NCBI GenBank assembly: GCA_913775315.1
Contig: CAJYIX010000016.1
Span: 1-47,032 of the forward strand
Reading direction: 5' to 3'
From: an uncultured Sphingomonas sp.
GTDB lineage: Bacteria; Pseudomonadota; Alphaproteobacteria; Sphingomonadales; Sphingomonadaceae
Length of the DNA: 47,032 bases
Shown: piece by piece, positions 42,783 through 47,032 of the stretch
Layout: every line of letters begins with the position of its first letter
Position numbering within the stretch: the first letter of the stretch is position 1
Program-made: the position numbers and the translations under genes
The notes under the pieces: model-generated
Database searches by the model: none
What the model saw: the letters and a program-made list of their open reading frames with translations, nothing else
Told to the model about the DNA's origin: nothing

Positions 42783-42891
42783 GGTCTTGGAAACTGCCTT
42801 TCGAACCCGGTCGTTCGCGGCCCGCAATGCCGCGTCGCAACCCAAACGGCAAGTCGTCAGCAAGGCTCCGCATTTTTCCGCCGAAAGTGCG

Positions 42892-42921
42892 TTGACAACC
42901 CCGCGGCCCCTCCCCTAGAGG
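42892..42921 (+). promoter_or_regulatory. Promoter of tRNA-Leu
   Basis: TTGACA (42892-42897) and TAGAGG (42916-42921) are 18 bp apart, 16 bp before the mature tRNA 5' end. The -35 is a perfect consensus, as expected for a stable-RNA promoter. Confidence 0.65.
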
Positions 42922-42937
42922 CGCCGGCCTACCCCGT

Positions 42938-43024
42938 GCCCAGATGGCGGAATTGGTAGACGCACCAGCTTCAGGTGCTGGCGCTCGCAAGGGCGTGGAG
43001 GTTCGAGTCCTCTTCTGGGCACCA
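42938..43024 (+). tRNA. tRNA-Leu (CAG anticodon)
   Basis: An 87-nt type II cloverleaf including encoded CCA. The acceptor stem GCCCAGA (42938-42944) pairs with TCTGGGC (43014-43020). The anticodon stem CCAGC/GCTGG encloses TTCAGGT, giving anticodon CAG. A long variable arm and GTTCGAGTC T-loop follow. It is intact and sits directly before an integrase gene, so its 3' end is the probable attachment site. Confidence 0.97.
42990..43024 (+). other. Candidate attachment site (3' end of tRNA-Leu)
   Basis: P4-type integrases commonly recombine at the 3' part of a tRNA gene, and one starts 163 bp downstream. The crossover would regenerate the tRNA. No second copy of this sequence occurs in the rest of the window, so the other end of the island is beyond 47032 or lost. 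Confidence 0.45.
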
Positions 43025-43134
43025 TTTCCCTGTGCGCGAATGACCGCCACAGGTTGAAAAATCGGCAGAAATCTGCGATAAAACGGCACGATCTGGTCGC
43101 TGCCGTCCGCTATTGTTCGCCTTCAGCCGGGCAC

Positions 43135-43189
43135 TTTTGGGGGCCACGTTGGGGGCCATTTCAAAATGTGCTTCTGGAGTGGCCCCCAT
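43135..43189 (+). repeat. Repeated TGGGGGCCA motifs before the integrase
   Basis: TGGGGGCCA occurs as direct repeats at 43138-43146 and 43150-43158 and inverted at 43180-43188, where the last base is the A of the integrase ATG. Either direct copy could pair with the inverted one as a hairpin over the start codon. Arm-type integrase sites or a self-regulating operator are possible. Confidence 0.5.
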
Positions 43190-44384
43190 GCCCCTGAATG
43201 ACGTTGCGATCCGCGCTGCCAAGCCCGGCCCCAAACCGATCAAGCTCTCCGATGAGCGCGGCCTGTTCCTGCTGGTGCAGCCTTCGGGCGGAAAGCTGTG
43301 GCGGTTGAAGTATCGGATCGCGGGCAAGGAAAAGAAGCTGTCGCTTGGGCGATATCCCGATGTGGCGCTGAAGGAAGCGCGCGAGCGGGGCGCTGAAGCA
43401 CGAAAGCTGATCGCGGCTGGCGTCGATCCTTCGGAGAAGAAGCGGATTGACCGGCTGGATGCGACGCTGAAGGCGGCAACCACGTTCAAGGCAGTGTCGG
43501 ACGAGTATATCGAAAAGTGCGAGCGTGAGGGCCGCGCCGATGTGACGGTAGGCAAAGCGCGATGGCTGCTGTCGCTGCTGGAACCGGCTCTAGGCACCCG
43601 GGCGATTGACGAAGTTAGCCCGGCTGAACTGCTGGCGGCGCTGAAGAAGGTTGAGGCGCGGGGCCATCTGGAAACGGCGCGACGGATGCGATCCTTCGCC
43701 AGCCGCGTGTTCCGCTACGCCGTTGCTACATCGCGCGCCACTGCTGACCCGGCCGCCGCGTTGCGCGGTGCCTTGGTAGCTCCGAAGGCCACGCATCATG
43801 CCGCTATTCTCGAAGCCAAGGGCGTAGGCGCACTGCTGCGCGCGATCGACGGATACGAAGGGCAGCCCATGACGCAACTCGCGCTCAAGCTCGCACCGCA
43901 TGTATTCGTGCGACCGGGCGAGCTGCGGCAAGCCGAATGGTCGGAAATCGATTTGGAAGCGGGCGTGTGGAAGATCGCCGCCGAAAAGATGAAAATGCGC
44001 CAGCCGCATATGGTGCCGCTATCCCGCCAAGCGATCGAAATTTTCCGGGCGGCGCAAGCGTTAACCGGCCGCCATCAATATGTGTTTGCGTCGCTCTATC
44101 CCGGCACTCGCCCCATGTCGGAGAACACGATCAACGCGGCGTTGCGACGGCTGGGCTATGCGGGCGACGAGATGACCGCACACGGCTTCCGCGCCATGGC
44201 CAGCACGCTGTTGAATGAAAGCGGCAAATGGAATCCCGATGCGATCGAGCGTGCCTTGGCGCATAAGGCGGCGGACGGAGTGCGCGGCGCATATCATCGC
44301 GGCGCGCATTGGGCTGAGCGCGTCGAAATGGCGCAATGGTGGTCCAACCATTTGGACACGCTTCGCTTGAACTCGCTAGCGTAG
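43188..44384 (+). CDS. Tyrosine site-specific integrase (P4/DUF4102 type)
   Basis: 398 aa from ATG 43188 with GGAG about 9 nt upstream; a longer reading from 43113 is in the repeat region. The N-terminal arm-binding DUF4102 domain (LNDVAIRAAKPGPKPIKLSDERGLFLLVQPSG, KKLSLGRYPDVALKEAR) and a central core-binding domain precede the catalytic domain. That has Arg in RPGELRQAEW, His and Arg in MTAHGFRAMASTLLNE, and the Tyr nucleophile in GAYHRGAHWAERVEMAQWW. It catalyses integration and excision of the island at the adjacent tRNA-Leu. Codon use is core-like, unlike the two genes that follow. Confidence 0.95.
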   Translation: MPLNDVAIRAAKPGPKPIKLSDERGLFLLVQPSGGKLWRLKYRIAGKEKKLSLGRYPDVALKEARERGAEARKLIAAGVDPSEKKRIDRLDATLKAATTFKAVSDEYIEKCEREGRADVTVGKARWLLSLLEPALGTRAIDEVSPAELLAALKKVEARGHLETARRMRSFASRVFRYAVATSRATADPAAALRGALVAPKATHHAAILEAKGVGALLRAIDGYEGQPMTQLALKLAPHVFVRPGELRQAEWSEIDLEAGVWKIAAEKMKMRQPHMVPLSRQAIEIFRAAQALTGRHQYVFASLYPGTRPMSENTINAALRRLGYAGDEMTAHGFRAMASTLLNESGKWNPDAIERALAHKAADGVRGAYHRGAHWAERVEMAQWWSNHLDTLRLNSLA

Positions 44385-44455
44385 TGCGTTCCAATAGCTG
44401 TAGCCGAATGGCCTGATGGGCCGTCGGACGCCGCCGCCTCAGCGGCCCGCTGTGC

Positions 44456-44465
44456 AATTCGAATT
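44456..44465. promoter_or_regulatory. Palindrome upstream of the ATPase gene
   Basis: AATTCGAATT is a perfect 10-bp palindrome (GCAATTCGAATTTGC is near-symmetrical), 44 bp before the ATPase ATG in the 125-bp gap after the integrase. It could be an operator for a phage or defence regulator. No regulator gene accompanies it, and no convincing -35/-10 pair was found. Confidence 0.3.
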
Positions 44466-44509
44466 TGCTGAGGTACGGTTTTTCGCGGCACAAACAGGAA
44501 CGATTGACC

Positions 44510-46027
44510 ATGCAGTTTCACGTGATCGACCGAGGTACATGGCCGCCCCAAGCGGCCTCCAATTCTGTATATCTGCGGATTGATTACTGGAACGACTATT
44601 CGTTCGTCACATCCTTTGAGGTGATAGCGTTTGACCAAAATGGCAAAAAACACGAGCTGCCGAGTGTTCGTATCGGATTTCCGAAACAAACAATAGATAC
44701 TCCTACCTACAAGAACCTCCCCCGCACGTTTGATCGCGTTCCGCCGGGATTCTTTTCCCTGGGTATTAGCGTAGATTACTATCGAACACTTTTTAGGGAC
44801 TTCGACGTTCATTGGCGAAGAGACTTTCTTGACCGCCTCTGTGATGTAGTTTTTAGGCCTGATGTTCTAGAGAAGGCCAAGGATGAGGAGGTCTTTAAAA
44901 CGTCGTTTCTGCGTTCGGTTTCTCTTACGGAAATCAAAGATCAATATGTCAGTGTTCTTTCCGGGGATGTTTCTCTTACCGACTTCGAGTTTGGGTTCAT
45001 ACTGCCCCAGTCACCGAGTTTTGCCGGGTTTGACCTAACATTCGAGGTTAAGGCCAATTCGCTTCCGAGCTCTAATATGCATGCTCTAATCGGAAGAAAT
45101 GGGGTCGGAAAGACTACTTTGTTAAATTCAATGGTTCGTGCGATAGTCGAGCCGGACGAAACCCGCGCGCACTTTTATACTCCATCCGGTTTTGGTAATC
45201 TAGTTCTGCCACAAGATTACTTTTCGAGTATTGTCTCGGTCGCATATAGCGCATTCGACCCATTCGACCTTCCCGCTGAAGACGAGCGCGGCCGTTACTC
45301 GTATATTGGGATGACCGATTATTCTGAAGGTGATGACGGGGCTATAATTAAGTCGCAACGCCAGATTATCAACGAATTTGTAGCCGCCCTGGAGATTTGC
45401 CTTAGCGACGAGGCGCGAAAGAATAGATGGCTTACAACGATCACTATTTTGCAAAGTGACGACAACTTTGCCGATATGAATCTTTCAGCGCTTGTTGATC
45501 TGCCTATCGCCGAGCGCGAAGCTGTTGCGCGAAGGCTCTTTATCAAAATGAGCTCGGGTCATTCTGTCGTTATCTTAACTATGACGCAGTTGGTAGCAAG
45601 ATTACAGGAGAGAACGCTGGTTCTTATTGATGAGCCTGAGAGCCATCTGCACCCTCCACTACTGTCTGCTATGATAAGAAGTTTAAGCCAACTTCTGCAC
45701 TCTAGAAACGCGGTCGCGATAATCGCGACTCATTCGCCGGTGGTCCTTCAAGAAGTGCCCCGGTCATGTGTTTGGAAGGTGTTCAGGTCAAAGCTGGCTT
45801 CCAAGAAGAAGCGTCCAGATACCGAGACTTTTGGAGAGAATGTAGGGACGCTTACTCGAGAGGCGTTTGGCCTTGAGGTTGAGCGCTCGGGATTTCACAC
45901 AGTACTTGCGGAAATGGTAGAGTTAGGCGGTTCATATGACGACATCATACGTAGACTTGGGGGATCGCTTGGCAATGAGGCCAAAGGAATACTCCGTGCC
46001 CTGGTCATAAATCGCGATGAGAACTGA
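44510..46027 (+). CDS. ABC/AAA-type ATPase of a candidate two-gene defence module
   Basis: 505 aa from ATG 44510, with AGGAA 9 nt upstream; a TTG 15 codons earlier is rejected. Residues 1-about 170 match nothing I recognise. The ATPase core has Walker A GRNGVGKTT (195-203), an MSSGH signature-like segment (347-351), Walker B LVLIDEPESHLHPP with Asp374-Glu375, and an H-loop IATHSPVV with His408. This is the SMC/RecF-like single-subunit ATPase class that includes PtuA of Septu and OLD-family proteins. No nuclease domain such as Toprim is visible. The gene is AT-richer than the core. It sits 5 bp before an HNH gene, so it probably controls that nuclease. Confidence 0.82.
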   Translation: MQFHVIDRGTWPPQAASNSVYLRIDYWNDYSFVTSFEVIAFDQNGKKHELPSVRIGFPKQTIDTPTYKNLPRTFDRVPPGFFSLGISVDYYRTLFRDFDVHWRRDFLDRLCDVVFRPDVLEKAKDEEVFKTSFLRSVSLTEIKDQYVSVLSGDVSLTDFEFGFILPQSPSFAGFDLTFEVKANSLPSSNMHALIGRNGVGKTTLLNSMVRAIVEPDETRAHFYTPSGFGNLVLPQDYFSSIVSVAYSAFDPFDLPAEDERGRYSYIGMTDYSEGDDGAIIKSQRQIINEFVAALEICLSDEARKNRWLTTITILQSDDNFADMNLSALVDLPIAEREAVARRLFIKMSSGHSVVILTMTQLVARLQERTLVLIDEPESHLHPPLLSAMIRSLSQLLHSRNAVAIIATHSPVVLQEVPRSCVWKVFRSKLASKKKRPDTETFGENVGTLTREAFGLEVERSGFHTVLAEMVELGGSYDDIIRRLGGSLGNEAKGILRALVINRDEN

Positions 46028-46032
46028 GTAGG

Positions 46033-46911
46033 ATGCGGAAGCTTGATTTGCCTGCTTATGGCGTCCTCGACCTCTACGATGCTGCAACGAGAGAGATAAC
46101 TGATCCCGCCCTGAGAGCAAAGTTCGCTGCAAATAGAAGTGAAATTGAGCCTGCTTTCAATGCTTACTATGGCGTATCATCCGGTGCGACATGGCACAAT
46201 CTGCCGCGGGCCCTTTGGGGGCAGGAGCATCAACTCGTCGTGGGCCAGCTCACTAAAGGTGAGCTTAACTCTCTATACAGCACCTGGGTCGTCAAAACCG
46301 CTGGTGACGCTAGACGCATATATGACGCGATCAAAATCTCCTCCGGTGGGGAATGCCCTTATTGCGGTGGCGTATCCGACATGGGCGAAGAGGGGGAGCT
46401 TGGGACTTTAGACCACTTTCTACCCAAAGCGTACTTTCCTACTTATTCAACCCATCCGTTCAACCTCGTCCCGGCTTGCGCGGTCTGCAACAAGGGAATG
46501 CATAGTAGTTTCCCTGTCGCACCAGATAAGCAGCCTTTGCATCCCTACATGGATGCAGACATGTTCTTCTCGGAGCAATGGGCTCGAGCCGTGGTTCGGG
46601 AAGGTGTTCCGGTCGTAGTGGATTTTGATGTTGACGCGCCCAACCACTGGAATGCTGTCGCTCGAGGGCGGATTATCCAGCACTTCTCTAGCTGCAATCT
46701 CCGGAAGCGATATCGTTCTCGAGTATCGCAGGAGGTTATCCCGTTAATCGATCAGAGGAATACCTCACTCCGAGACCTTAGTGTAGATCAATTCCGCGCG
46801 CATCTCGCGGTGGTATCCGTGCAGCAATCTTTACCCATCAACGGCTGGAAGCGAACCCTTTATAGGGCCTTAGCTGCGTCGGATTGGTTTTGCAGTTACG
46901 ATTTCACCTAG
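46033..46911 (+). CDS. HNH endonuclease of a candidate two-gene defence module
   Basis: 292 aa. The HNH core has CPYC (Cys108, Cys111), the catalytic DH pair (Asp127-His128, in TLDHFLPK), the Asn in FNLVPAC (Asn144), and CAVCN (Cys149, Cys152, Asn153). The N-terminal 100 and C-terminal 130 residues are helical and unrecognised. PtuB of Septu is likewise an HNH nuclease beside an ATPase, but this protein is longer and the family link is not shown. The stop is TAG 46909-46911, whose G is the first base of an adjoining IS element: an in-frame IS insertion may have set the present C-terminus. Translation is probably coupled to the ATPase. Confidence 0.8.
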   Translation: MRKLDLPAYGVLDLYDAATREITDPALRAKFAANRSEIEPAFNAYYGVSSGATWHNLPRALWGQEHQLVVGQLTKGELNSLYSTWVVKTAGDARRIYDAIKISSGGECPYCGGVSDMGEEGELGTLDHFLPKAYFPTYSTHPFNLVPACAVCNKGMHSSFPVAPDKQPLHPYMDADMFFSEQWARAVVREGVPVVVDFDVDAPNHWNAVARGRIIQHFSSCNLRKRYRSRVSQEVIPLIDQRNTSLRDLSVDQFRAHLAVVSVQQSLPINGWKRTLYRALAASDWFCSYDFT

Positions 46912-47032
46912 GGTCAGGACTCGTTGATCACAGCCAGAAGATGATGGTGGCAGCGAGGGCGACGGCGGAGAAGAAGGCGTTTGGGCACCGATCGTAGCGG
47001 GTGGCGACACGGCGCCAGTCCTTCAGACGGCC
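46911..47032 (-). mobile_element. Right-hand IS5-family element, end and partial body
   Basis: The left boundary of the IS is taken as GGGTCAGGACTCG at 46911, immediately after CTA, matching the TA/CTAG-type targets of IS5-family elements. A partial transposase on the minus strand runs to the window edge, so the far inverted repeat is not visible. Confidence 0.65.
46928..47032 (-). CDS. IS5-family transposase, C-terminal fragment (cut by window edge)
   Basis: The minus strand reads GRLKDWRRVATRYDRCPNAF then FSAVALAATIIFWL and a TGA stop (46928-46930). This is the conserved C-terminus of IS5/IS427-group DDE transposases, with the K-R-x-R-Y-D-R segment including the family's YREK-like region downstream of the Glu. 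The rest of the gene is beyond 47032, so intactness is unknown. Confidence 0.8.
   Translation of the reverse strand, partial: GRLKDWRRVATRYDRCPNAFFSAVALAATIIFWL

Follow-up and report, generated by a model that had tools for sequence, protein, structure and literature searches.

Septu systems pair a PtuA ABC ATPase with a PtuB HNH nuclease. For Septu EcB88, PMC13096335 states that substitutions in the PtuA Walker or the PtuB H-N-H residues abolish immunity, that the tRNA-Tyr variable loop is cut upon infection and that the growth of infected cells is impaired. PtuA and PtuB are also found in type I-A retrons. According to PMC11555353, the PtuAB proteins of retron Eco7 deplete tRNA-Tyr and Eco4 leaves tRNAs unreduced; for a different Septu, the reported target is nicked DNA. 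A third related entry is PDC-M01 (M01A/M01B), a phage defence candidate in PADLOC. The PDC systems are presented as unpublished candidates in PMC11811056, where Septu calls coincided with 41 of those for PDC-M01. Within the literature searched, PDC-M01 appears in two papers, both of them genome surveys.

The window analysed here, 47,032 nucleotides from an uncultured Sphingomonas sp., is the entire contig C16 of a 3.25 Mb genome in 44 contigs. The original prediction had described an ATPase and an HNH nuclease 5 bp apart, AT-richer than the core and following a tRNA-Leu integrase, as an anti-phage module resembling Septu. Both reading frames are present on the same strand with that spacing, and the tRNA-Leu and an integrase with recognizable Pfam domains lie upstream of them, as had been claimed. 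Coordinates are collected in Table 1.

Table 1. Features of the window and of related loci discussed in the text; positions given without a locus name refer to the window.
Feature	Position	Strand	Remarks
tRNA-Leu(CAG)	42938–43024	+	ARAGORN, Rfam tRNA; island starts at the tRNA 3′ end
Tyrosine integrase	43113–44384	+	Pfam Arm-DNA-bind_3, Phage_int_M, Phage_integrase
PtuA-like ABC ATPase, Ea59/PDC-M01A family	44510–46027	+	505 aa
N-terminal region ahead of the ABC domain	44510–44974	+	ATPase residues 1–155
PtuB-like HNH protein, Ea31/PDC-M01B family	46033–46911	+	292 aa
Insertion sequence end (transposase C-terminus)	46912–47032	-	Translation; contig stops inside
Type ISP enzyme and pair	L003:3–4463, L008:3–4445, L010:3–4478		Shimia, Sulfitobacter, Celeribacter
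Lambda ea59-ea31	L046:1910–4374		NC_001416 24509–26973
E. coli pair	L155:6001–8375
Second integrase of the same family at tRNA-Leu(CAG) in G027	L172:468–1718

The ATPase-HNH pair has a G+C content of 50.0% and the integrase one of 62.9%, against 68.2% upstream of the tRNA, where 811 sampled stretches of 2402 bp range from 65.3 to 72.1%. The two 60-base counts from which the difference was first noted (25/60 in the pair, 40/60 in the core) are exact. For the integrase, an ATG near 43190 is a likelier start than 43113. Over 395 aligned residues, the protein shares 58% identity with the integrase of L002, an uncultured Sphingomonadaceae locus in which that gene likewise lies at a tRNA-Leu.

In the nearest relative found (G038), an alignment of 94% identity breaks off exactly at 43024, the tRNA 3′ end. 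The L002 locus has an identical layout of tRNA-Leu(CAG), integrase, ATPase and HNH gene. From the alignment break and the shared layout, the pair therefore rides on an island at the tRNA-Leu site. Three relatives were read beyond their tRNA-Leu(CAG): an integrase of the same family is present in G027, and none was found in the 6–8 kb read in G038 and G010. Since G027 has another integrase of this family there, this tRNA-Leu probably serves as a hotspot for integration. The island itself may be a satellite, a prophage remnant or another kind of genomic island.

The visible island stops with the contig, 121 bp past the HNH stop codon and inside a repeated insertion sequence which we take to be IS5-like. 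Six other copies of this element occur in the genome, 98–100% identical over the end seen here, along with one 35-base partial match, and because all six lie at contig ends, the assembly is probably broken at each copy. The element abuts the HNH stop codon, and the CTAG at 46908–46911 is common to all six other copies. The HNH protein looks intact since its C-terminal end coincides with the ends of its relatives. With up to two mismatches allowed, a 25-base pattern taken from the tRNA 3′ end has one occurrence in the genome; as the six other copies of the insertion sequence also lie at contig ends, the right junction of the island was not found.

The ATPase matches the PADLOC model PDC-M01A over residues 1–504 of 505 (3.8e-188) and the PADLOC PtuA1 model PDLC00282 from end to end (4e-172). 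An HMM search against PtuA and PtuB had been proposed as a check of the Septu-like reading; these PADLOC matches, together with that of the HNH protein to PDC-M01B, support it, while the NCBIfam cut-offs were missed by both proteins. With NCBIfam PtuA the ATPase scores 52.5 bits, far below the cut-off of 500; the NCBIfam PtuA and PtuB models are equivalogs that describe the retron Ec78 effectors. When the NCBIfam PtuA model was searched against 240 genomes of the class, one genome gave a match, below the cut-off, and this genome is the source of one of the PtuA/PtuB-type pairs used for comparison. In PHROGs, the ATPase belongs to phrog_8066, listed as unknown function.

The Walker A, signature, Walker B and H-loop motifs that characterize the ABC/OLD-type ATPase of Septu are all present. 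Walker A Lys201, Walker B Asp374/Glu375 and H-loop His408 are identical in 53/53 aligned pairs, as are G195, N197, G200, S348 and G350. T202 is shared by 49 of the 53 and is replaced by Ser in the other four. The original prediction had singled out Lys201 of the ATPase and Asp127 and His128 of the HNH protein for mutation, and its motif assignments hold up, with all three residues invariant in this set.

The predicted model of the ATPase (pLDDT = 88.5) matches PtuA above unrelated folds in a comparison made with a second aligner that used Foldseek's ranking. Residues ~155–505 of the model are closest to the solved PtuA structures of Septu and type I-A retrons, and the PtuA-like fold includes the C-terminal helical part. 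A profile-profile comparison of the ATPase family with four PtuA-type proteins gave a probability of 96.9% (E 1.7e-10, 139 columns).

Ahead of the ABC domain lies the N-terminal region that had been put at roughly 170 residues without a match. The region is real and has no clear match, but its length is nearer 155 residues: residue 1 of E. coli PtuA (PDB: 8eea) aligns to residue 158 of the ATPase model. The Walker A motif starts between residues 184 and 241 in 53/53 family members and at residue 33 in two PtuA-type proteins that have no reverse transcriptase. Within the region, Trp27 and Asp29 are conserved in 52/53 members and Arg135 in 53/53. For residues 1–155, the only Pfam match, PIH1, stays under its cut-off (E 0.0009; 19.2 bits, cut-off 24), and sequence matches in the PDB reach E 1.2 at best. 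The ABC domain dominated the structure comparison of the ATPase model, which hardly probed residues 1–155, and no new fold is claimed for them.

The HNH protein matches PADLOC PDC-M01B over residues 1–288 of 292 (2.3e-88). Of 50 PADLOC families matched, the 25 best include no PtuB model. Its scores are far below the cut-off for NCBIfam PtuB (15.2 bits, cut-off 150) and below that for Pfam HNH (15.0 bits, cut-off 21.4). Seven residues, C108, C111, D127, H128, N144, C149 and C152, are found in 53/53 aligned pairs, and those of the HNH motif are presumably catalytic. In PHROGs, the protein is assigned to phrog_10378 (HNH endonuclease).

The predicted model of the HNH protein (pLDDT = 93.7) matches PtuB above unrelated folds, and among 39 chains compared with the second aligner it is closest to the PtuB structures solved for Septu and for type I-A retrons, with a PtuB-like fold predicted over nearly the whole protein. 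Foldseek returned no match for this model in the PDB, and the PtuB match comes from the second aligner only. A profile-profile comparison of the HNH family with four PtuB-type proteins gave a probability of 93.7% (E 1.9e-7, 152 columns). When the family profile was searched against the PDB, Cas9-like and other HNH proteins (E 1.7e-4 to 2.9e-4) ranked above PtuB (E 0.01 and up). A Foldseek search of both models against viral structures gave nothing telling, with no protein named Ea59 among the 50 matches listed. From the predicted folds and the full-length PADLOC PtuA match, the Septu-like reading gains support, and the proposed structure search against PtuA and PtuB came out in its favor for both proteins with the second aligner.

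A search of 50,697 phage records connects the pair to bacteriophage lambda. The ATPase and lambda Ea59 share 43% identity along their whole length, while for the HNH protein and lambda Ea31 the figure is 31.8%, with a coverage of 98%. In lambda, ea59 and ea31 occur in the same order as here, overlap by 4 bp and adjoin attP and int. The two lambda genes are thus built like a Septu-like pair. In the literature searched, which lacks most subscription papers and bioRxiv, no paper on the function of Ea59 or Ea31 or on a link to defence was found, nor a phage assay for any member of the family.

The pair is consistently kept together. A profile scan of viral contigs identified 64 ATPase loci, and the HNH gene lies directly downstream in 58 of the 60 ATPase ORFs above 100 bits, the other two running off the contig; this count excludes the weak loci L107–L110 (<100 bits) and includes near-duplicates such as L101–L105. 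A separate viral HNH scan, outside this count, gave 45 loci. The genes are adjacent in 9/9 loci from genome contigs. Among the relatives, the HNH protein was matched in nine of 150 genomes, G000 included. Five of the other eight have an adjacent ATPase ORF (L037, L039–L042), one is cut by a contig end (L038), one has a weak adjacent ATPase match (L019) and one has none in the stretch seen (L018). Across the class, 4/385 genomes were matched, G000 included, and the ATPase adjoins the HNH gene in the three others. The divergence of the ATPase and of the HNH protein over 53 pairs is correlated (Spearman 0.89), a value that shows only co-inheritance of linked genes.

The pair is also found in plasmid-collection records and in E. 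coli genomes. In the plasmid collection, 62 records carry the ATPase, 20 of them Streptomyces, and an HNH frame follows the ATPase in all four plasmid regions that were read. Five records (OR902850, OR902857, NZ_CP104294, NZ_CP068597 and NZ_CP082339), filed as E. coli, Stenotrophomonas, Paenibacillus and Salmonella, are ~48.4–48.5 kb in size with an ATPase identity of 43–44%. Given this size and the lambda-like match, these records may be lambda DNA. An E. coli pair (L155) is 48% (ATPase) and 31% (HNH) identical to that of the window. Close copies of it occur in 90/5426 E. coli genomes, at 89 chromosomal and two plasmid places, and 68/5426 contain 80% or more of the lambda pair. The L155 pair lies 436 bp past icd, a prophage site, and although its record is classed as a plasmid of E. 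coli, it carries chromosomal genes. A BL21(DE3) record matches only ~35% of the DNA of the lambda pair.

In the relatives, the pair has defence genes and parts of mobile elements as its genomic neighbors. In three of the nine genome-contig loci (L003, L008 and L010), a type ISP restriction-modification enzyme precedes the pair, and its stop codon overlaps the ATPase start codon by one base (TGATG). This arrangement suggests that the pair is an embedded accessory module; embedded defence systems have reportedly been described by Payne and colleagues. Within ~5 kb of other loci are a CD-NTase (L037), AbiEii (L041), a C5 DNA methylase (L039) and an MmeI-like gene (L002). On the phage side, L004 adjoins a capsid gene, and L005 adjoins GTA/phage-tail and glycosyl hydrolase 108 genes. 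The survey is of a small sample with neighbors picked by hand and no random control.

Since the predicted structures are closest to PtuA and PtuB, the pair probably works like Septu, as an anti-phage effector module, a reading by analogy to which a probability of about 0.72 is assigned. Following the Septu and retron literature, the PtuA-like ABC ATPase would assemble with the PtuB-like HNH nuclease, the ATPase complex would silence the nuclease in healthy cells, and infection would release or activate it to cut nucleic acid. Cutting would halt phage growth, probably at the expense of the infected cell. Candidate substrates are tRNA, which Septu EcB88 and retron Eco7 target, and nicked DNA, on which one other Septu is reported to act. 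As a guess, the N-terminal region of the ATPase may replace the retron reverse transcriptase and msDNA in setting the trigger or as the sensor. Two ORFs with the expected catalytic residues, their close pairing in relatives, the predicted PtuA and PtuB folds and carriage on mobile elements come from the analysis itself, and from sequence and predicted models an anti-phage role is likely.

That lambda carries the pair is a counterpoint to defence, as a phage gene may serve the phage. One way in which it could do so is superinfection exclusion, where the pair shields the lysogen, and thus the resident prophage or island, from competing phages. The main mechanism would be shared with the Septu-like module and the difference is in whom the pair serves. 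The position of lambda ea59-ea31 beside attP and int, the 60 viral-contig loci, the capsid, GTA/phage-tail and glycosyl hydrolase 108 genes next to L004 and L005, and the placement of the window pair behind an integrase at a tRNA all point this way. The pair also occurs behind type ISP restriction enzymes, near defence genes and in 62 plasmid records, where this explanation fits less well. Exclusion is quite plausible, if somewhat short of even odds, and it overlaps the main explanation instead of competing with it. A function in the lytic cycle, such as cutting host or competing nucleic acid, would leave the bacterial copies as prophage remnants. While the lambda pair lies near int and many viral contigs carry the pair, the catalytic residues are kept in 53/53 pairs, genome loci included, and a one-base overlap with type ISP genes occurs at three loci, both of which speak against this role. 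A CRISPRi study (PMC10695390) lists ea31 and ea59 as nonessential for lambda, which also counts against a lytic function and fits an accessory role without proving it. A lytic-cycle role is improbable.

Addiction of the toxin-antitoxin kind, in which the ATPase restrains a toxic nuclease that is freed upon loss of the element and the mobile element is thereby stabilized, is slightly better placed than a lytic-cycle role and is still unlikely. The pair is linked to mobile elements, as this explanation would have it, but two large enzymes are unusual for an addiction module, which counts against it. The Eco7 data bear on both sides: in PMC11555353, PtuAB is toxic without the reverse transcriptase and msr-msd, whereas PtuA alone and PtuB alone are nontoxic. 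Since neither protein is toxic alone, the Eco7 ATPase is not an antitoxin. The least credible explanation, with very little probability, is a homing or mobility module, with the HNH protein acting as homing endonuclease and the ATPase in an accessory role. The HNH motif, even at a Pfam score under its cut-off, and the varied insertion places would agree with homing, but the ABC ATPase partner is constant and the predicted PtuB-like fold spans nearly the whole nuclease.

On its own, the window pair merely adds a member to a candidate family that is already catalogued; the lambda connection raises its interest. The value lies in the link to lambda genes beside int for which no function in print was found, and the solved PtuA and PtuB structures offer an immediate model for how Ea59 and Ea31 might act. 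Because this branch has neither the retron layout nor the bare PtuA layout, it helps to separate what Septu needs, an ATPase and an HNH nuclease, from what triggers it. Tentatively, Ea59-Ea31/PDC-M01 could be a separate type of Septu, spread by phages, where an N-terminal ATPase domain, and not a retron, senses infection; lambda would then carry an unrecognised exclusion system near int, and the window pair would be a working bacterial copy.

Compared with the described systems, the pair shares with Septu an ATPase and an adjacent HNH gene on the same strand. The E. coli PtuA-PtuB (PDB: 8eea, 8ee4) is without the ~155-residue region that precedes the ABC domain here. As the original prediction had it, the HNH protein is larger than a compact PtuB, with 292 residues against 213–223 in four PtuB-type proteins; the catalytic His lies at residue 128 instead of 57–65, reflecting a longer N-terminus. 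Relative to the PtuA/PtuB of type I-A retrons (Ec78/Eco7, Ec83), the Walker A motif starts at residue ~195 and not at 93 as in two retron PtuA. A retron reading was rejected: the flanks that can be seen contain no ORF for a reverse transcriptase, and the gene directly upstream is the integrase. An Rfam search of 42800–47032 gave no RNA family except the tRNA, and thus none of the msr-msd that marks a type I-A retron. Lambda Ea59-Ea31 has the gene order, full-length homology and integrase adjacency of the window pair and differs in being phage-borne at attP. With PDC-M01, both proteins match near full length, the genes are adjacent and no difference was found. The suggestion of a possible new variant is thus right about the N-terminal extension and is overtaken by a family already catalogued: the pair is a member of the PDC-M01/Ea59-Ea31 family, a branch related to Septu and not a new kind of system.
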